From a virus: 47,412 bases of DNA. The translations under genes were made by a program, and so were the position numbers. The notes beneath the pieces are model-generated. The model saw only the letters and a program-made list of their open reading frames with translations. It ran no database searches and was not told the origin of the DNA. The stretch lies in the IMG/VR virus record IMGVR_UViG_3300046000_012596, positions 1 to 47,412 of that record, one strand, 5' to 3'. The number at the start of each line of letters is the position of its first letter. Positions within the stretch are counted from its first letter, which is position 1. Shown in pieces: positions 4,782 through 46,171 of this stretch.

Positions 4782-5600
4782 TTAAAAATTAACCATCACA
4801 CCACCACTATCGATAGATTCTCTTATGGTTTTTACGTGTCTGGTTTTAATTTTGAGGTTACCTATTAAAAATGGTTCTTCTCCCAAACTGTTTAGTTTCT
4901 CAACTATACTTTTTTCAATAAGAGAAAATCTTTCACCAACCAATGGACTATGTTGTATATAATCGACACCATTCTTTCCTCGTAAAGAAAAGATGTAATT
5001 TGTTGAGGACATAAAACTATAATCCTTATTTTTTCCGATTGTGATTTTATTGTCAGTCGTTGTTATGGAAACGATATCTGTACTTAAGTCTTTGAACTTT
5101 CTGAATATTGCGTTAACGTTAGACCCCTGTGTTGCACAGAAATGACCTCCTTTGTCTTCGTGAACAAGCACAGGGGTTGGTATTGTGAATCCCAAATGAT
5201 TTTGATAGATGTATAATCCACCATCTAAATCTTTGTATTGACAAGTTCCGTCATCGAAAATAACTTGAGCAACAGATTTGTTTTGGACAACTTCCGTAGA
5301 AAAATTAAGTTGGTCAGATATTCTTTTCCAAAGTGGGTAAAGTAATGTTTCCCTGTAAGACGAATACTTCTTGGTCTGAATAGTGTTGATTGGATTAGTT
5401 GCCTGTTTTTCATTATGATAAACCTCCCAAAGATATTTGTCGTATTCATTTACTTGACTGCAGTAATTCTTCCATTCTCCTGTCTCATACACTTGATTAA
5501 CAGCAGACTCAAATTCTGGTAGGAATTCAAGTGCTCTTCGCACGTACGGGTGACTACCCTCTTCTGACATTATGTTTCTATGGTAGTTAATGTTAATCAT
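4782..5600 (-). CDS. Putative PD-(D/E)XK nuclease-like protein
   Basis: A 272-residue protein not firmly recognised. The central part reads LDGGLYIYQN...PVLVHEDKGGHFCATQ (about residues 124-160). The upstream Asp followed by E-D-K fits the D...(D/E)-x-K core of PD-(D/E)XK nucleases, and the GGHFC-x-TQ stretch is a compact conserved-looking segment. A restriction-like or repair nuclease role is therefore possible but unproven. There is no signal peptide or membrane segment. The first ATG (5600) overlaps the end of the uvrC-like gene by eight bases; a second ATG at 5570 (MSEEGSH) is also possible. Position next to the UvrC homologue suggests co-transcription and perhaps DNA metabolism. Confidence 0.75.
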   Translation of the reverse strand: MININYHRNIMSEEGSHPYVRRALEFLPEFESAVNQVYETGEWKNYCSQVNEYDKYLWEVYHNEKQATNPINTIQTKKYSSYRETLLYPLWKRISDQLNFSTEVVQNKSVAQVIFDDGTCQYKDLDGGLYIYQNHLGFTIPTPVLVHEDKGGHFCATQGSNVNAIFRKFKDLSTDIVSITTTDNKITIGKNKDYSFMSSTNYIFSLRGKNGVDYIQHSPLVGERFSLIEKSIVEKLNSLGEEPFLIGNLKIKTRHVKTIRESIDSGGVMVNF

Positions 5601-6861
5601 GTAATAGTTTTTTTGTTGTTCTTTCCCTATGGAACTTTATTGCAAATCTATGAACTTCTTCTTGAATTACCCCAAGGATTGACCAGTCCATAGAATATTG
5701 TTTTCCGTTAGTTGTGTGGACAGTTTTAGACCTATGATTTTTATCTTTGGATATTGATATAAGGTCTATTCTACCTGTAAGTCCTAGACTCTCTAAAACC
5801 TTTTTTGCGACGTTTAATTGACCTACTCCCCCGTCAATGAGTACAAGGTCAGGTAATTGACTTTTCTCGTCCAAAAGTCTCTTAAAACGTCTATAAACAA
5901 CTTCCTCGAAGGACTTACAATCGTTGCCGTTGTTAGACTCTTCACGGATAATATACTTACGATATTCACTCTTTTGTGGTTTGTTGTTTACGTATCTTAC
6001 GGAAGCCGCCACATTCGAGTCCCCTTGATTATGAGAATTGTCAAAAGCCTCTATAATAAGAGGGAGGTTCATGAGACCCAATACCCTTTTGATACCGAAG
6101 GCAATCTTATTGTACTTTCGAACACGGATTGGTTCGAGTTTCTCTTCAAGAAATTTGATTTGATTAACTCTACGAAGGTAATCATCAGCCTTTTCAAACT
6201 CCAAGTCTTTAGAAAAGTCGTGCATCCGACCTGTGAGAAATACTTTGACCTTATTGTAATCGAGTTCAAATATCTTTCGAACGATAAGTTGGTACTTGAG
6301 GTATTCCAAATTTGATTCTAAAGAAATACAAGGTGCATTACATCGACCAAGGTGATATTCAAGGCATGGTTTGAATTTACTATTATCAATATTCTCTTGG
6401 TTGAGAGTATAAGAACATGTCCTCAACGGTAAAATGTCATTAATAAGTCGCATAACCTCATTAGCCATCAGACCTGATGTAAAATTGATTCCACGGGTCT
6501 CATCACCTTTTCCGTGAGTTATTTGCAGTTTAGAATAGGGACCTTCGGTCAAAGACAGATACCAAGTCCTTGATTTGTCATCTTTACCTTTGATATTGAA
6601 CTTCGGTTTATAAATCTTGATGAGTTCCTCTTCCATAATAAGAGCCTCAGCTTCAGAAGAAGCTATTTGGTATTCAACGTCACGAATTTGCTCAACAAGA
6701 GTCTTGGTTTTTTTATCGTCGTGTTTTTTTTGGAAATAAGATGAAACACGTTTGGGAAGAAACTTTGACATACCAACGTATATTACTTGGTCCTTATCAT
6801 CTTTGTAGATGTAACAACCAGGGTACTTGGGTGCATTTTTTATTTTTTCTTTGAGTTCCAT
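5593..6861 (-). CDS. uvrC: UvrC-like excinuclease subunit lacking the HhH domain
   Basis: About 422 residues. UvrC makes both incisions in nucleotide-excision repair together with UvrAB. The start at 6861 (MELKEKIKNAP) was chosen because the family normally begins with lk..i..lP..PG-Y just there; upstream ATGs exist. Visible in order: the GIY-YIG domain (PGCYIYK, IYVGMSKFLPKRV, and the metal-binding Glu in ALIMEEELIKIYKPKFNI), a Cys cluster (CLEYHLGRCNAPC), a UVR-like segment near residue 210 (DLEFEKADDYLRR), and an RNase-H-like nuclease domain with the expected Asp (EAFDNSHNQG), Asp (LVLIDGG) and His (EVHRFAIKFHR). Both catalytic centres look intact. The C-terminal tandem helix-hairpin-helix of cellular UvrC (about 600 residues) is missing. 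It could work with host UvrAB, or act as a stand-alone nuclease as Cho-type proteins do. Confidence 0.92.
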   Translation of the reverse strand: MELKEKIKNAPKYPGCYIYKDDKDQVIYVGMSKFLPKRVSSYFQKKHDDKKTKTLVEQIRDVEYQIASSEAEALIMEEELIKIYKPKFNIKGKDDKSRTWYLSLTEGPYSKLQITHGKGDETRGINFTSGLMANEVMRLINDILPLRTCSYTLNQENIDNSKFKPCLEYHLGRCNAPCISLESNLEYLKYQLIVRKIFELDYNKVKVFLTGRMHDFSKDLEFEKADDYLRRVNQIKFLEEKLEPIRVRKYNKIAFGIKRVLGLMNLPLIIEAFDNSHNQGDSNVAASVRYVNNKPQKSEYRKYIIREESNNGNDCKSFEEVVYRRFKRLLDEKSQLPDLVLIDGGVGQLNVAKKVLESLGLTGRIDLISISKDKNHRSKTVHTTNGKQYSMDWSILGVIQEEVHRFAIKFHRERTTKKLLHD

Positions 6862-7070
6862 TCCTTTCGGTGTTTGATAAACCATATCAAGTGAATCGTA
6901 ATGACGCACAAATTTACAACAATCGTTGGTTTTGCCAAAATTCCAAAACCATATATTAACCAAAAGATTGCGCCAATTGTGTTAACAAACCTTAAACGGA
7001 AAACGTCCTCAATTAGGAATGAACCTAATATGAGGACTGTTCCGATATATCCATATATTTCCCAACTCAT
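6840..7070 (-). CDS. Small multi-pass membrane protein
   Basis: 76 residues with three hydrophobic segments: about residues 5-21 (IYGYIGTVLILGSFLIE), 28-46 (FVNTIGAIFWLIYGFGILA) and 49-65 (TIVVNLCVITIHLIWFI), followed by a basic tail. The layout resembles small YgjV/MtN3-like half-transporter proteins, but the family is not certain. Its start overlaps the stop of the gene at 7067 by four bases, and its end overlaps the UvrC start by about 22 bases, so it belongs to the same transcript. Confidence 0.7.
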   Translation of the reverse strand: MSWEIYGYIGTVLILGSFLIEDVFRLRFVNTIGAIFWLIYGFGILAKPTIVVNLCVITIHLIWFIKHRKEWNSKKK

Positions 7071-11760: not shown

Positions 11761-12306
11761 TTAATAGTTAGGTATTGTGAGAGGTAAAGTCATTTCTTTT
11801 CCTCCGTCAGTCATAATTCTGTATGTTTTGATTTCACCTAAATCAGGGAAACTTATTAATTCTACATGAATACCCCACTTTTTGACTTGTTTGTTAACTT
11901 CGGGTGTTACTTTTTTATTGAGGTCAACAAGTTCTTCCCAAGTTGTTCTTTCAACTATGTCTCGAATAATCCCTTGAGTGGTGTCAACAAGTACATCATT
12001 AGCTTGCATAACTCCGAGTAAAAACTTTTTTACATCAAAAATGTGATATCTTACAATTGTAGTCAGAACCACACTTTTTTCGTCAAAAGATGTCACGGTT
12101 TGAGGTTTTAAATTTACGGTTTGGGTAATTACGGATGTGGTGAGAATTTGGTCGAAAAAAGAAATCTTGAATCGAAGACCAGGTTCAACAACTCTTGAAA
12201 ATTTACCTGTTCTCAAATGAACACCTTTCTCCCATTGATTAACAATTTTCCAAGGGAGAATATCATGTATAAATGTAACAATTAGGTCAATAAGTTTATC
12301 AAACAT
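11761..12306 (-). CDS. SPFH/band-7 domain protein
   Basis: 181 residues. SPFH (stomatin/prohibitin/flotillin/HflK-C) proteins form membrane-linked oligomers. The N-terminus has a moderately hydrophobic stretch (LIDLIVTFIHDILPWKIV), then the typical entry VVEPGLRFKISFFDQI, then VNLKPQTVTSFDEKSVVLTTIVRYHIFDV and GIIRDIVERTTWEEL, all characteristic of band 7. It stops soon after the SPFH core, lacking the long C-terminal helix of cellular stomatins. SPFH proteins occur in many large phages; their phage role is not settled. Convergent with the sulfotransferase gene, with a single base between stops. Confidence 0.9.
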   Translation of the reverse strand: MFDKLIDLIVTFIHDILPWKIVNQWEKGVHLRTGKFSRVVEPGLRFKISFFDQILTTSVITQTVNLKPQTVTSFDEKSVVLTTIVRYHIFDVKKFLLGVMQANDVLVDTTQGIIRDIVERTTWEELVDLNKKVTPEVNKQVKKWGIHVELISFPDLGEIKTYRIMTDGGKEMTLPLTIPNY

Positions 12307-13735: not shown

Positions 13736-13749
13736 TCTAGTTATCAATA

Positions 13750-13784
13750 ACAAAAAACCCCAACCGTGGAAACGGTCAGGGTTT
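13750..13784 (-). terminator. Rho-independent terminator of the large ncRNA
   Basis: On the minus strand AAACCC-TG-ACCG-TTTCCA-CGGT-TG-GGGTTT forms a long hairpin followed by TTTT. It marks the 3' end of the large non-coding RNA. Confidence 0.9.
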
Positions 13785-14740
13785 GGCTAAAACTCTGAGA
13801 ATACAAGTTCATTCGAGAATCTTTTGAAGGATTATTTGGTTCCCTTCGTTTCCACTTCCTTTTGAGAAGTAATCCTCAGTCACGGTCAATTAGATTAACC
13901 AATCCTTAAGTTGTGTACAACTCTCTCCTTACTTATCACTCTCCGACCCTGCCGAGCCAGTTCTTCCTTGCGGGAATAGAGAACTTTCGAGAAAATCGTG
14001 TCGGGCTTGGGACCCTTCACGGCCGTGAACATCTCACGACTATGTAGTGACCTGTCACACACAACTGACGAGCACTTTTCCTTGTAATTATTAGTTGTTA
14101 AACCATTTTAACAAAGAGTTGGTTTACGGATTAGGAAGGTAGCGGCTCGTCTGAAGCCAAGTCATCTTTTGAACGACCCGATACTAAACTACCCTCTGAA
14201 GTGTCCCCACCTCCATATTGAGAGTCAACTTCATCACAAATCCCTTGGTAGGGAAGTCTGAAGGTTGATAACAGCACCACCTGTACATCAACTTACCTTT
14301 CGGTTTTAAGTCAACTCGGATATTGAAAGACGTAATTGTGGCAGTGGATACTACCATTTCTCACATACATTCTACAGGTTATTCTTATTAGTCTTCCGAC
14401 CTCAACCAAACGACCCGCATCGCTTGGTCACCCCACCACGTTCCCTACAGTGTTACCCTCGGTACTAAAGATGATGTGATATCCTGCTTGCCTACTTAAG
14501 CTCCCTTTCGGAAACCGCAGACTACCCAAAACCAGGGTAATCCACTTTATACTACTTTCGTAGTTTATTTAACGACCATAGGCGGCCAATATCTTTTTCA
14601 GAATGTCTCAAAATCAACCCAAGGGTCTCATCATCAACGAAACTGTTAAGATAATATTTTTATTCAAAGAACTATCACTTTTTATCGGGGGAATCGGAAA
14701 TCATTTTATCAGACACTTGCCGAACCGATTCCCCCGAACT
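13750..14740 (-). ncRNA. Large structured non-coding RNA (GOLLD/ROOL-like candidate)
   Basis: Nearly 1 kb with no credible open frame on either strand, richer in G and C than the surrounding genes, with its own promoter (14747-14778) and terminator (13750-13784) on the minus strand. The 5' end forms a perfect 13-pair hairpin (14685-14697 with 14725-14737). Further inward are many compact hairpins with GNRA-type loops in the minus-strand sense: CTAC-GAAA-GTAG (14552-14563), ACC-GAAA-GGT (14295-14304), TACCC...GGGTA (14523-14539), TCCCT-ACCA-AGGGA (14241-14254), and the palindrome at 14016-14029. Size, ornate structure, a tRNA gene just upstream and a phage setting are all traits of the GOLLD family (about 800 nt) and, less well on length, ROOL (about 600 nt). 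I cannot run a covariance model, so family membership is tentative; a novel giant RNA is the alternative. Ribosomal RNA, tmRNA and RNase P were considered and rejected. Confidence 0.8.
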
Positions 14741-14746
14741 GTTTTA

Positions 14747-14778
14747 CAAAATTAAGACATCTTTTTTAATCTGTCAAA
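14747..14778 (-). promoter_or_regulatory. Bacteroidota-type promoter of the large ncRNA
   Basis: TTTG, then 20 bases, then TAATTTTG on the minus strand. Transcription would begin near 14740, immediately before the 13-pair hairpin, and run to the terminator at 13750. Confidence 0.75.
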
Positions 14779-14798
14779 TTTTATTAAAACTTTTTTTG

Positions 14799-14870
14799 TT
14801 GCGAGGGATGGATTCGAACCAACGACCTAAAGGTTATGAGCCTTCCGAGCTACCACTGCTCTACCTCACA
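14799..14870 (-). tRNA. tRNA-Met (anticodon CAT)
   Basis: A 72-nt cloverleaf: acceptor TGTGAGG/CCTCGCA (one G-T pair), D stem GAGC/GCTC, anticodon stem GAAGG/CCTTT with loop CTCATAA (anticodon CAT), five-base variable region AGGTC, and T arm GTTGG-TTCGAAT-CCATC (one T-T mismatch). The 3' CCA is not encoded (CAA follows the discriminator A). CAT could mean elongator Met, or Ile2 if the C is lysidine-modified. It is transcribed from the promoter at 14954 and lies upstream of the large ncRNA. Confidence 0.93.
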
Positions 14871-14893
14871 ATATATTTTAAAGAACTACTTTT

Positions 14894-14942
14894 GAAAAAA
14901 TCCCACAAGATACTAATATCTCTCGACAAATTCTCTCGTGGG
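14894..14942 (-). terminator. Hairpin in the tRNA leader (attenuator-like)
   Basis: On the minus strand CCCAC pairs with GTGGG across about 31 nt containing a second small hairpin AGATA-TTAG-TATCT, and is followed by ATTTTTTC. It lies between the promoter at 14954 and the tRNA, so it may be a weak terminator, an attenuator or a processing structure. Which one cannot be told from the sequence. Confidence 0.5.
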
Positions 14943-14953
14943 TTATTGTTTCA

Positions 14954-14985
14954 CAAAGATAATTAATTTTTTCGTTTTACCAAAA
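14954..14985 (-). promoter_or_regulatory. Bacteroidota-type promoter of the tRNA
   Basis: TTTTG, then exactly 19 bases, then TATCTTTG on the minus strand. It lies about 85 bases upstream of the tRNA-Met and could also feed the large ncRNA. Confidence 0.88.
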
Positions 14986-15086: not shown

Positions 15087-15188
15087 TTACAAATCCATAT
15101 CGTCAATGTTTTTTTTGATTTGTCTCTCTATATCCCACCAACCGTAAAGTCCAAATGCAATTATTGCACAAAATAAAATCCAAATCAT
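15087..15188 (-). CDS. Small membrane protein (33 aa)
   Basis: A 33-residue reading frame beginning MIWILFCAIIAFGLYGWW, a single hydrophobic segment followed by a charged tail (DIERQIKKNIDDMDL). Its ATG overlaps the stop of the Nudix gene (ATGA), typical of translational coupling. Single-pass mini-membrane proteins are common in phages; function unknown. Confidence 0.55.
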   Translation of the reverse strand: MIWILFCAIIAFGLYGWWDIERQIKKNIDDMDL

Positions 15189-15604
15189 TTCAAAATAATT
15201 TCTGCTATTTTATGGAAATACTCTCCAGATTCCATTGGATTTATTTCTTTGAGGGTAAAATATTTCCAATCAGTGTGTTCTTCTCCGTCCATGGCGTTTT
15301 CGAAATCAGGATGAATTTCTTCATCAGTTTCTAATAAATAAACATACATTAATCCTTTCACTTTTTTTCCGTCACGGGTATGTCTTGGAACTAACCCGAT
15401 AAATTTGATTTCTAGTTCGTCAATGTCCACAGCAGTTTCCTCAAAAAATTCTCTTTTAGCTCCTTCTTGTGAAGATTCCCCTTCTTCTAATTTACCTCCA
15501 GGAATGGACCACATTCCAGGAAAAGAACCTAAATTATTTCTTTTACAAAGTAAAATGCGGTCTCCACATTTAACCATTACTCCGGCATACTTTCTTGTTT
15601 CCAT
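15185..15604 (-). CDS. Nudix hydrolase
   Basis: 139 residues. Nudix enzymes hydrolyse nucleoside diphosphates linked to another group. The Nudix box is complete: GKLEEGESSQEGAKREFFEET (about residues 37-57) fits G-x5-E-x7-R-E-U-x-E-E, with metal-binding Glu residues present. The N-terminal strand KYAGVMVKCGDRILLCKRN and PGMWSIPGG are typical of the MutT/ADP-ribose-type branch. Substrate specificity cannot be read from this; nucleotide-pool sanitising or cofactor hydrolysis are both known in phages. It lies between the cobalamin adenosyltransferase and the 33-residue membrane protein on one transcript. Confidence 0.92.
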   Translation of the reverse strand: METRKYAGVMVKCGDRILLCKRNNLGSFPGMWSIPGGKLEEGESSQEGAKREFFEETAVDIDELEIKFIGLVPRHTRDGKKVKGLMYVYLLETDEEIHPDFENAMDGEEHTDWKYFTLKEINPMESGEYFHKIAEIILK

Positions 15605-15631: not shown

Positions 15632-16186
15632 TTAACCTTTCCAAATAATTTCTTCATATCCTTGTTCTTTGTTAACAAATCTACCAAGAACAAAAAAATA
15701 ATCACTTAATCTATTCAAATATTTTAATACCAATGGATATTGTGTTGCAGGTATACATCTTCTTTCAGCTCTTCTACTCACTGTTCTACAAATATGACAA
15801 ATTGATACTATTTGTGAACCTCCAGGGATTATAAAATTTTTTAATTCAGGTAGAACACCGTCCATCTCATCAATCCACTTTTCCAATTCAATAATATGAT
15901 TTTCTGTTATCTCCTGTAGTTGGATTTTATCTTTACCTAAATTATCATAAGACAGACAAGACCCCATAACAAAAAGATTGTTTTGAATTTTTTCTAATTG
16001 GGTAATACTGTTATCAAAAAAACGGATTTTCCCTCCCATTGAATCAGTCAAAAGTCCTATGAATGAATTAAGTTCATCTACTGTTCCGTAAGCTTCCAAT
16101 CTCCAATCGTCTTTTGATACTTTTGTCCCACCAAGAAGTGATGTTGTACCTTTGTCACCAGTTTTTGTGTATACTTTTTTAGACAT
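15632..16186 (-). CDS. Cob(I)alamin adenosyltransferase, PduO type
   Basis: About 184 residues (ATG at 16186, MSKKVYTKTGDKG; another ATG two codons upstream). PduO-type enzymes transfer adenosyl from ATP to cob(I)alamin, making adenosylcobalamin. The N-terminal ATP-binding signature YTKTGDKGTTSLLGGTKVSK is intact, as are the WRLEAYGTVDELNSFIG helix and the C-terminal CRTVSRRAERR signature, followed by LKYLNRLSDYFFVLGR. Length and layout are those of a complete enzyme. In a phage this would be an auxiliary metabolic gene, possibly supplying cofactor for a B12-dependent ribonucleotide reductase or for host metabolism; no such reductase is in the window. Confidence 0.93.
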   Translation of the reverse strand: MSKKVYTKTGDKGTTSLLGGTKVSKDDWRLEAYGTVDELNSFIGLLTDSMGGKIRFFDNSITQLEKIQNNLFVMGSCLSYDNLGKDKIQLQEITENHIIELEKWIDEMDGVLPELKNFIIPGGSQIVSICHICRTVSRRAERRCIPATQYPLVLKYLNRLSDYFFVLGRFVNKEQGYEEIIWKG

Positions 16187-16211
16187 ACACAATTCTAAAA
16201 AAAAAGTTTTT

Positions 16212-18296
16212 TTAATTCAACTCGGAGTTGAAAAAATTTCTTCTAATCTCAAAGTTTTTGTCAACTTTTTCTATGTACTTAAAAATCCACTGTTGAAGTT
16301 TGTCTTTGTCCTTTATAAGTTGTTCAATATCTTCATTGTTCTTAAGAGGAAGTTCAACTACTTTAGTTGCGCCTTCTAAATAATGTGCACCGCTATTCTT
16401 TGGTCCGAATTTTACAGAACCATCATCTCCCAATAGAATCAAATCCCAAACGATATTATCACAATCAATTCCATTACCATCAACAATAATGTAGTCCAAG
16501 TTTTGAAATGGTGAGTAAGTTCTGTATCCGTCCACTTGGGGTTCCATTTGTTTACCCAAAGACTCTTTCAGTTCCCATCCTTCTTTAGGTTGTTCTAAAT
16601 CAGGTTGTAATCTATAATTCGTTGTAAGTTCCTCACCTTTGTTTATTTTTCTAGAAGCTGTTAAAAATCTTTTTTTATCCTTAAGAACATTGTGACAATT
16701 TGGAATTTCACTATGATTATGCATTTCACCAAGTTCGGTGAAATTGTAATCTACGTAAGGTTTATTTATAGTGTGGAGTAATCCAATAGTCTCTCCTTCA
16801 TCCAAATCTTTTTTTGCAAAAACACCCTTTCCTTGTATTTTACTATTATCTATATAGTACTTTTTTTTTTCTTCAGATTCTGAAACTACTTCTTTTTCTG
16901 AAGAGTTTTTGATTTTTTCTTTCAATGTTTCAACAAATTTGTTTCCAATTTGTTTCATAAACTTTATGTAAGGTACATCAGGTTTGTCAGGAGAATGTCT
17001 ATAAGGGTCTTCTGAAGGTCTTGTTTTTCTACCGAGATAGTTAAGACCTGAAATATTAGTAATACATTTATGTCCTCCAGAGTTTGATTGAATAAAGTCC
17101 CATGTGTTAACTCCAACCTTGTCCAAAGTTTGTTTTTCTTCCTCGGTCAATTCTGAAAAAGGTTTATCCATTATAGATTTTATTTTTCTCAAAATTTCTT
17201 CACCTCCATCCATGAAAGCTATTTTTCCACCGTAAAGAGCGTCGAAGTCCTTGAAGGTAAATCCCACACTTTCAGGTCCTACAGAAATTTCGCTTATCCA
17301 TTTTAAAGTCGATAATGGAATAGTTCTTTGTTTAAGTTGAGGCTCGTAAATCTTGAGTACTTCTTGTGCTATTTCACCCAAATTGACTCCTTTAAGTTTT
17401 CTTTCTTTTTTGAACGGATTACAAGAAGCTTGAAGTAAACCCAAAGGCCACATGATTACAAGGAAATCGGCTTCAGGGTTAACTCTAAAAGGAGTATATC
17501 TATCGTAAGAACCAGTCTTCATACTACCAGCACCATATTGGAAAATAATACCGTCTTCAATTTTTCTTTTCGGGTAATTTTTCATTTGTTGAAAATAATC
17601 ATCAGAACGACCTTGTAGTTTGTTTGCGTCTTCAGCGTTGGTTTCTTTCATCCAATTTCTTATGTTGGTTAAAATTGACATAAGAGATGGTTCAGAATCC
17701 ATAACTAATTCCTCCATGAAACCTTTTCTGTTTTTAAAAGCCAAAATAAGTTTGTTAATTACAAACCCTAATAACATTTTGTTTTTTTGGAGTGGTTTTT
17801 CCTTGTCCAAACGAAATACATAGTTAACGACTTCTTCAGGTTTTATTTCATGTTTTGCAAAGTCTGCAGAATCAACTGTAGAAATTAATAAAATATCAGG
17901 TGATGGAAAAATATCCTTCGGACTTACTATTTGTGAAATTGTTTCAACGTTTGAACGTGCTTGTCTGAAAGATTTAGAAGCATCTTTTTCAGCACCAACT
18001 TGTTTATCGTGATGGTCTGTGTGAATTTTGAACATGGGTTTACCATGGGCAAAGTCAACTAAAACCGGCATAATATCTCCTTGAGCATCGTTTTTCTTAA
18101 CAGAAAACTCTTTATCACCATATTGAATTATGTGTGCCCCAACAACTTTAATACCATTATCTTCCAAATATTTTTTCATTGCGATGGCTGTAGTTACACC
18201 ATCTAAATCTTGGTGAAAATAAATTTCGGCTTTGGGATATCTTTTCCTCAAAGCCGAAATATCTCTTAATCCACTCTCTTTAATAATTTTTTTCAT
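16212..18296 (-). CDS. DHH phosphoesterase-SET domain fusion with head-targeting leader
   Basis: 694 residues with a rare architecture. The leader MKKIIKE-S ends in I-K-E (residues 5-7). The N-terminal domain has DHH-superfamily motifs: FHQDLDGVTTAIAM (about residues 27-40, D-x-D-G) and IHTDHHDKQ (about 92-100), then VDSADF near 145 and SGGHKC near 413, which resembles the GGH segment of the DHHA1 subdomain. A charged linker follows (about 465-480), then a SET domain from about residue 485: SKIQGKGVFAKKDLDEGE, MHNHSEIPNC and KINKGEELTTNYR, matching the GxG, N-H-S-x-x-P-N and E-E-L-x-x-x-Y signatures of protein-lysine methyltransferases. The remaining C-terminal region (about 570-694) is unrecognised. 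I infer a virion-packaged enzyme that cleaves a nucleotide or nucleic acid and methylates a protein; neither substrate is known. Confidence 0.85.
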   Translation of the reverse strand: MKKIIKESGLRDISALRKRYPKAEIYFHQDLDGVTTAIAMKKYLEDNGIKVVGAHIIQYGDKEFSVKKNDAQGDIMPVLVDFAHGKPMFKIHTDHHDKQVGAEKDASKSFRQARSNVETISQIVSPKDIFPSPDILLISTVDSADFAKHEIKPEEVVNYVFRLDKEKPLQKNKMLLGFVINKLILAFKNRKGFMEELVMDSEPSLMSILTNIRNWMKETNAEDANKLQGRSDDYFQQMKNYPKRKIEDGIIFQYGAGSMKTGSYDRYTPFRVNPEADFLVIMWPLGLLQASCNPFKKERKLKGVNLGEIAQEVLKIYEPQLKQRTIPLSTLKWISEISVGPESVGFTFKDFDALYGGKIAFMDGGEEILRKIKSIMDKPFSELTEEEKQTLDKVGVNTWDFIQSNSGGHKCITNISGLNYLGRKTRPSEDPYRHSPDKPDVPYIKFMKQIGNKFVETLKEKIKNSSEKEVVSESEEKKKYYIDNSKIQGKGVFAKKDLDEGETIGLLHTINKPYVDYNFTELGEMHNHSEIPNCHNVLKDKKRFLTASRKINKGEELTTNYRLQPDLEQPKEGWELKESLGKQMEPQVDGYRTYSPFQNLDYIIVDGNGIDCDNIVWDLILLGDDGSVKFGPKNSGAHYLEGATKVVELPLKNNEDIEQLIKDKDKLQQWIFKYIEKVDKNFEIRRNFFNSELN

Positions 18297-45090: not shown

Positions 45091-45255
45091 TCAGAAAATA
45101 CTAATAAAGGTTGTGACTCTTGTAAAAAAACACCCTACCACGGTAGTTTAAACAAAAATGAAATGTTTGGTATTGTTGCCGGTATCTACATTATTTGTAC
45201 TTCGGTATATGGAAGTATTTCGTTAGTTAAAGAAATTATGACTTATTTCAAATAG
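45088..45255 (+). CDS. Small membrane protein with N-terminal Cys pair (55 aa)
   Basis: 55 residues. Start [19 protein letters not shown] with a C-x-x-C motif, then a hydrophobic segment (about residues 27-45, [20 protein letters not shown]). A membrane-embedded or thiol-active small protein is likely. Divergent from the 58-residue gene through the palindrome; its end overlaps the DnaJ end by eight bases. Confidence 0.7.
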
Positions 45256-46171
45256 GCCTGTCAAATTTTACAAACAATTTCACGTACATATCCCCTCCTT
45301 CAAATCCCTTTCCCCTTAACCTTAATGGTTTGGATGTGTCAACTGTTTTTGGTGCGCTCATAAGTAGTTCTCCGTCAGGATGAGGTATTTTGAATTTTTC
45401 AGATTGTAAATCTTCTAAATTCAGATACAAAGAATATATAAGGTCGTTATTAATTTTTTCAAATCCTTCTTTTGCAATTAATTCAATCTGTAAAACCAAA
45501 TCACCATTCTCACCATTTCTAAAATCACCCATATTTGCAAGTTTTAGAAATTGACCATTATCACAACCTCGAGGAAGATTCACACTTACCTCATTAATAG
45601 TAGATTGAGTACCTCTACCGTCACACATGTAACATCTATGAAGGATATAACTTCCTTTTCCGTTACATGATGGACAAGCTGTTCTTACTTGTTGAACCAT
45701 AAATCCAGTTCCAAATGTTTGAATTTGGAATCCGGCACCATTACAAGTCTCACAAACTTTTCTTTCGCCACCTGAACCATGACAGACGTTACATGAGTTA
45801 TCCTTGGAGTACTGTATTGTTTTTTTAGACCCAAAATAAGATTCAATAGGGGTTACTTGTACCTTTAATATTTTATCAGGTGCCTGTTTTCTTCTTTGTC
45901 TTTGTTGATTATTAACATTCGCACCAAACATTTGAGAAAATATATCTTGAAAAGGTGTGTTTTGATATGGATTTTTCTTTTTAAAATCATACTCTGCTCT
46001 TTTTGGTCCGTCACTTAAAACCTCATACGCTTCTGCAATTTCTTTGAATTTTTCTCCTCCTTCAGGATTTAAGTCTGGATGAAATCTTTTAGAAAGTGTT
46101 CTATAACTTTTTTTTATGTCATCATCGGAAGCATTCTCTTCAACTTCCAAAATTTTATAATAATCTTTCAT
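45248..46171 (-). CDS. dnaJ: DnaJ-family co-chaperone
   Basis: 307 residues. It stimulates Hsp70 (DnaK) ATPase and delivers substrates. Residues 1-65 are a J domain with the H-P-D loop ([10 protein letters not shown]). The Gly/Phe region is short ([17 protein letters not shown]). The zinc domain has all four C-x-x-C-x-G-x-G repeats ([32 protein letters not shown]; the last ends G-R-G). The C-terminal substrate domain follows: [20 protein letters not shown] and [16 protein letters not shown]. It is shorter than cellular DnaJ (about 370 residues) through loss of parts of the linker and C-terminus. Phage DnaJ proteins can recruit host DnaK for virion assembly or replication. No phage DnaK is in the window. 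Confidence 0.95.

Follow-up and report, generated by a model that had tools for sequence, protein, structure and literature searches.

A GOLLD RNA with an rRNA-like leader beside an initiator-type tRNA gene in a predicted Bacteroidota jumbo phage

The closest described relative of the RNA analyzed here is the env-38 GOLLD, which was solved by cryo-EM as a 14-mer of D7 symmetry forming a hollow cage (PMC12286853). Its layout comprises a 5′ cap domain (residues 1–420) and a 3′ ring domain (residues 421–833) with a disordered linker (residues 497–538) inside, and a Met tRNA is located upstream (PMC12286853). ROOL is likewise a giant, cage-forming phage RNA found near tRNAs. A second point of comparison is the leader of bacterial rrn operons: the boxB, boxA, and boxC elements of pre-rRNA recruit an antitermination complex (PMC10250234, PMC4807359). 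Finally, a study of huge phages assigns phages of >634 kb to the Mahaphages, which are predicted to replicate in Bacteroidetes (PMC7162821). The locus described here is best read, with fairly high confidence, as a jumbo-phage GOLLD that would be transcribed by the host behind an rRNA-like leader with antitermination, would form a cage, and constitutes one stable-RNA locus together with an initiator-type tRNA.

The window (the whole stretch of DNA that was analyzed, an IMG/VR record of 47,412 bases) was scanned in full with the Rfam covariance models, and two matches exceeded their thresholds, a GOLLD and, at 14799–14870 on the minus strand, a tRNA. The GOLLD match (RF02032) is located on the minus strand, as are all features described below for the locus, at 13792–14196 and scores 317.2 bits (E = 4e-90, gathering score 150 bits) over model positions 1–416; the model spans the 3′ domain only and was matched from end to end. 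No match to ROOL above threshold was found in the window, and the fold differs from that of ROOL. A first-pass annotation of the sequence had proposed a giant noncoding RNA at 13745–14745 that might be GOLLD, ROOL, or a new class. These coordinates are correct and enclose a GOLLD core at ~14596–13790 preceded by a leader that makes up the first ~145 nt, the choice between the two families is settled by the covariance model, and the proposed new class is ruled out by the full-length match. The properties that had drawn attention to the region were also recovered: there is no open reading frame of ≥60 amino acids on either strand between 13717 and 15184, the G+C content of 13750–14749 is 0.42–0.45 compared with ~0.30–0.33 in the flanks, and GNRA loops (GAAA and GCAA) are present and conserved. 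The whole RNA is more stable in folding than dinucleotide shuffles (z = −3.6). No other RNA family accounts for it; weak sub-threshold matches to sar, rnk_leader, sau-63, and SpF66 over the terminator hairpin region were taken as chance. The RNA is a genuine GOLLD, a member of a known family, and its family, fold, leader elements, and tRNA type were all assigned from the sequence.

The core consists of two separate domains, a 5′ domain of ~400 nt (14199–14596) that lies outside the Rfam model and a 3′ domain of ~405–410 nt (13792–14196) with a short, variable linker placed as in env-38. The 5′ part of the RNA is 69% identical to that of the 634-kb phage LR745206. The matches listed for a loose 3′-domain pattern in the first viral scan were mostly unrelated contigs, and a 17-mer from the 5′ domain performed far better: it occurs in more than 118 IMG/VR contigs at the least, and nearly all of those among the matches listed align to most of the window RNA. 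A pattern restricted to the 3′ domain retrieved 72 contigs, and those of sufficient length also carry the 5′ domain, which is therefore not an artefact of the search. When domain profiles were run over all loci, both domains were found together at at least 195 IMG/VR loci; the loci with a 3′ domain only represent truncated contigs or belong to GOLLDs from other phages and prophages, and those with a 5′ domain only are mostly cut at the contig end.

A total of 108 distinct full-length sequences (759–861 nt) were tested for covariation with an APC-corrected G-test, for which 15 alignments evolved on the tree served as the null. A total of 83 covarying pairs were identified over both domains at E < 0.05 (0 expected from the tree-based null), nearly all of which are standard pairs. 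When 36 5′ domains were aligned separately with MAFFT, 105 pairs were predicted, 82 of which show compensatory changes on both sides. The alignments were built from sequence only, so that no fitting to a structure was involved. Covariation supports a structured 5′ domain of ~400 nt, and the 108-sequence alignment thereby supplies support for a domain that is absent from the Rfam model. It likewise supports the fold of the 3′ domain with its long-range helix and pseudoknots, where the covarying pairs run from 401–462 to 790–804 and include the non-nested pairs 448–528, 548–716, and 698–712. The strong covariation and the lack of a coding frame bear out the first-pass reading of the region as a structured RNA.

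Part of the covariation fits the contacts of the solved 14-mer cage. The pairs 517–587 and 516–588 covary and fit the kissing contact L20 × J13/15 (bridge B7), the L21a loop carries GC in most sequences and CG in some (bridge B8), and the loop pairs 141–147 and 142–146 covary with the 4-nt spacing described for the daisy chain B2, each of the three contacts being assigned by position and published description. The last two pairs could alternatively represent a three-base hairpin loop closed within one chain. In the published env-38 numbering, the domain length, the linker position, and the L21a position agree with the window, with the 5′ domains compared by description only. The linker (14085–14134, 50 nt in the window) is variable and AU-rich and would correspond to the cage interior of the solved structure; linkers in the group are 38–72 nt long (median 55 nt, 26% G+C, 108 sequences). 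A tRNA within the linker, as reported for some GOLLDs, was not found in the GOLLD group of the window. By analogy with env-38, the window RNA most probably forms a cage of 14 chains that encloses the linker. Like env-38, it is phage-encoded and located downstream of a tRNA with a CAU anticodon. It differs in its setting in a predicted Bacteroidota jumbo phage, in a leader composed of promoter, hairpin, and boxA, and in a tRNA that is recognized as initiator type, the linker being free of tRNA.

The window contains 12 Bacteroidota-type promoters compared with 1.6 in shuffled sequence, 11 of which are on the minus strand (sigma-ABfr consensus TAnnTTTG/TTTG; PMC7366714). Phages LR745206 (634 kb) and LR756502 (642 kb) encode GOLLDs of the same type with the same 5′ domain, and both carry a relative of the window gene at 16212–18296; within the phage collection, relatives of this protein were found only in these two phages and in two 735-kb records. 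The GOLLD promoter of the window aligns in LR745206 with a promoter-like stretch upstream of the tRNA, which suggests one joint tRNA–GOLLD transcript in that phage. A tmRNA-like match below the gathering score (L002 3401–3492, 22.8 bits) precedes the tRNA and the GOLLD in LR745206. The window phage thus appears to be a Mahaphage-related jumbo phage with predicted Bacteroidota infection, and a Bacteroidota host is likely because of the kinship with phages assigned to the Mahaphages by their genome length and because of the promoters. The first-pass suggestion of a Bacteroidota phage with host-type promoter control is in line with these observations and with a boxA common to Bacteroidota 16S leaders. 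A search for a cellular host among genome contigs returned a single match, a contig of a Firmicutes MAG (L253) in which Rfam detects no GOLLD; the match was attributed to chance and no cellular host is therefore named.

The protein encoded at 16212–18296 (minus strand, 694 amino acids) contains, near its C terminus, a SET domain identified by Pfam; a DHH-like motif (HQDLDGVTTA) was recognized by eye close to the N terminus, and a relative is encoded upstream of the GOLLD at 34 of 101 loci. A cargo or partner protein of the RNA was sought among the neighboring genes and rejected, as no neighbor is universal and the best families (34, 32, and 28 of 101 loci) resemble markers of phage clades. Other genes of the window encode a phage-borne cobalamin adenosyltransferase (15632–16192), a NUDIX hydrolase (15185–15604), a Band 7/SPFH protein (11761–12306), a UvrC-like nuclease with GIY-YIG and RNase H domains (5593–6963), and DnaJ (45248–46171).

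Initiator tRNAs are characterized by a CAU anticodon combined with A11:U24, the lack of a strong 1:72 pair (C1 × A72), and G:C pairs at 29–31/39–41. The phage tRNA that the first-pass annotation had placed beside the RNA is a tRNA(CAU) at 14798–14870; its initiator type, like the boxA of the leader, goes beyond what that annotation had noticed. It scores 40.5 against the E. coli fMet tRNA metZ, 15.5 against the elongator Met tRNA, and 20 against Ile2, and the comparison with metZ, metT, and ileX of strain K-12 rules out the elongator Met and Ile2 identities. The tRNA contains A11:U24, a weak U1:A72 pair (compared with C1 × A72 in 30 of 55 relatives), and G30:C40 and G31:C39 but A29:U41 in place of the third G:C pair, and hence displays some but not all of the initiator hallmarks. 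The association extends beyond the window. Among 107 loci with both flanks available, 57 have a tRNA within 600 nt of the GOLLD and in 50 of these it has a CAU anticodon, located either upstream of the GOLLD or, in 13 loci, ~8–46 nt past its 3′ end. A total of 55 distinct CAU tRNAs within 600 nt of a GOLLD were compared with 31 located further away: metZ was the closest E. coli tRNA for 51 out of 55 compared with 9 out of 31, A11:U24 was present in 41 compared with 3 (Fisher's exact test, P = 4e-9), and C1 × A72 in 30 compared with 2, and in 0 out of 421 non-CAU tRNAs. Related loci share the presence of a nearby CAU tRNA and are therefore not independent counts, and on the GOLLD tree the trait was gained or lost at least 20 times. 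Roughly every second locus has no tRNA within 600 nt, and the link is therefore clade-dependent. A literature search for GOLLD and initiator tRNA matched only unrelated plant papers, and an initiator-type tRNA beside a GOLLD appears to be new with respect to the literature searched.

Several further RNA genes were observed near GOLLDs. Odd CAU tRNA-like genes with a nonstandard D-arm and a mismatched 1:72 position abut the GOLLD 3′ end in four loci (L022, L034, L168, and L266), so that tRNA processing may create that end. Two loci (L145 and L158) contain tRNA-like genes of undetermined anticodon (attc) 7–10 nt past the GOLLD, abutting its 3′ end, two others (L131 and L164) have tmRNA genes nearby, and a large phage tRNA array that includes a GOLLD contains a match to the freshwater-1 sRNA just above threshold (L151 9263–9325, minus strand, 72.4 bits).

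The presence of the tRNA might be explained by defence alone: the phage initiator tRNA would only make up for the loss of host tRNA-fMet through VapC-type anticodon nucleases or degradation, and its position beside the GOLLD would reflect a shared site of stable-RNA expression and not a joint function. The chances of this explanation fall just short of even. Phage tRNAs are known to evade tRNA-targeting defences and VapC-LT2 targets tRNA-fMet (PMC10264068), and both the GGG/CCC anticodon stem, kept in just 9 out of 55 distinct CAU tRNAs near GOLLDs, and the many loci that lack a nearby tRNA agree with mere replacement. It accounts less well for the rarity of other tRNA types beside GOLLDs and for the occurrence of CAU tRNAs upstream or directly downstream on many branches, with repeated gains and losses; this recurrence on both sides suggests that there is a reason for the pairing of GOLLD and tRNA.

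The leader of the GOLLD begins with a Bacteroidota-type promoter (TTTGACAGATTAAAAAAGATGTCTTAATTTTG, TTTG-N20-TAATTTTG, consensus scan) at 14747–14778, in agreement with the dedicated promoter postulated by the first-pass annotation. The perfect 13-pair hairpin noted there at the 5′ end folds at 14685–14737 (−26.1 kcal/mol, z = −3.5), at the expected transcript start and in the position of a boxB, and is followed at 14664–14672 by the only minus-strand copy of the boxA GTTCTTTGA in the window. The strong terminator was also confirmed, as a hairpin of 13 pairs followed by U's at 13752–13784 (z = −4.5). A similar arrangement precedes the tRNA, with a Bacteroidota-type promoter (TTTG-N19-TATCTTTG) at 14954–14984, a hairpin at 14902–14942 (leader −18 kcal/mol, z = −3.2), and a boxA-like GTTCTTTAA with one mismatch to GTTCTTTGA at 14878–14886. 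Across the group, a Bacteroidota-type promoter was found within 700 nt upstream in 91 out of 141 GOLLD loci. An exact boxA is present between −120 and +20 of the core in 115 out of 141 nonredundant loci, and in 138 with up to one mismatch, compared with an expectation of 0.005 per interval of this kind (~0.5%), calculated from the frequency of the motif in the remainder of these contigs. The position of boxA ranges from −105 to −8 relative to the core, and this variable spacing marks it as a leader element outside the GOLLD fold. Promoter and boxA are separated by a hairpin of at least 2 kcal/mol in 86 out of 96 loci compared with 45% of mononucleotide shuffles; the hairpin sequences are unrelated among loci while the pairing is retained. 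Terminators were detected within 70 nt of the GOLLD in 64 out of 123 loci compared with 1 for random stretches, by a detector that missed the terminator of the window itself. Another 85 boxA copies were found in the GOLLD contigs, and for 26 of them a tRNA or tmRNA follows within 400 nt. The GOLLDs with a 3′ domain only (L243, L245–L246, and L248–L252) have no such boxA in the stretch examined, which confines the leader to the GOLLD clade of the window.

The same nine bases occur exactly in the 16S leaders of six out of nine Bacteroidota (Prevotella, Segatella, P. nigrescens, Parabacteroides, Aureibacter, and Persicobacter) whereas those of Flavobacterium, Flammeovirga, and Chryseobacterium lack an exact copy; the GOLLD boxA is identical to that of the six leaders from this likely host phylum. 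Host promoter, hairpin, boxA, a long untranslated stable RNA, and a neighboring tRNA are all shared with the boxB-boxA-boxC leader of bacterial rrn operons, a likeness read from sequence, whereas the product is GOLLD and not rRNA. Among the matches listed in a literature search none treats GOLLD together with boxA or antitermination, the GOLLD cryo-EM paper (PMC12286853) makes no mention of boxA, and the rRNA-like leader thus appears to be new within the literature searched. In an AT-rich leader, nine bases may also be recognized by another factor, and GTTCTTTGA might instead serve a phage regulator, mark a site of processing, or belong as a fixed element to the fold of the GOLLD precursor, with GOLLD an ordinary transcript of a host promoter. 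Nus binding is predicted only, and the missing exact copies in one third of the Bacteroidota leaders and in one GOLLD subclade would suit such a role. This alternative is unlikely, as both the sequence and the order (hairpin, then boxA) are those of rrn leaders, the distance to the core varies, and copies also precede tRNA and tmRNA genes. Antitermination at the GOLLD leader is a strong inference from these features, and GOLLD is probably a stable RNA whose expression involves antitermination.

Under antitermination, host RNA polymerase would transcribe GOLLD from its own promoter with a start at ~14740, and the leader hairpin and boxA would most likely load the host NusB/NusE antitermination complex. 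An untranslated RNA of ~950 nt could thus be produced at a high level without Rho termination, the transcript would end at the strong terminator near 13752, and the RNA would fold into its 5′ cap and 3′ ring domains and then presumably assemble. A weaker version of the unit of promoter, hairpin, and boxA also precedes the neighboring initiator-type tRNA, which suggests that GOLLD and tRNA form one stable-RNA locus for infection.

A shared role of GOLLD and tRNA in phage translation can be proposed only tentatively. In a more specific and slightly less probable form, the two would act jointly on translation initiation, for example by a cage that sequesters ribosomal subunits or the host's initiator tRNA, or modifies them, while phage messages rely on the phage tRNA. 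The initiator type of the adjoining tRNA, the rRNA-type leader, and pull-downs in which GOLLD reportedly binds ribosomes, cited in PMC12286853, point in this direction; the linkers free of tRNA in this GOLLD group and the half of the loci with no tRNA nearby point away from it. For the tRNA, replacement of host fMet tRNA is at least as likely as a translation role. That the RNA belongs to ROOL or to another giant class is already refuted and retains practically no probability, since RF02032 matches in full, ROOL does not, and the 3′-domain covariation agrees with the GOLLD fold, even though the 5′ domain falls outside the Rfam model.

As the RNA family itself is already known, what merits further attention is how its leader is built and its association with an initiator-type tRNA. 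These features lead to the speculative, and on balance doubtful, proposal that GOLLD is organized in the jumbo phages of Bacteroidota like an rRNA operon, with a host promoter, a hairpin, and antitermination through boxA, and that its pairing with a phage initiator tRNA, seen in many of these phages, reflects a part played by the cage in the takeover of translation initiation. If true, GOLLD would be a boxA-antiterminated stable RNA of phages with a first lead to its function. A conserved rRNA-type leader would explain how a phage could produce a long untranslated RNA at the level that a 14-mer needs, and the link to an initiator-type tRNA together with the reported ribosome binding directs attention to translation, and to its initiation in particular.
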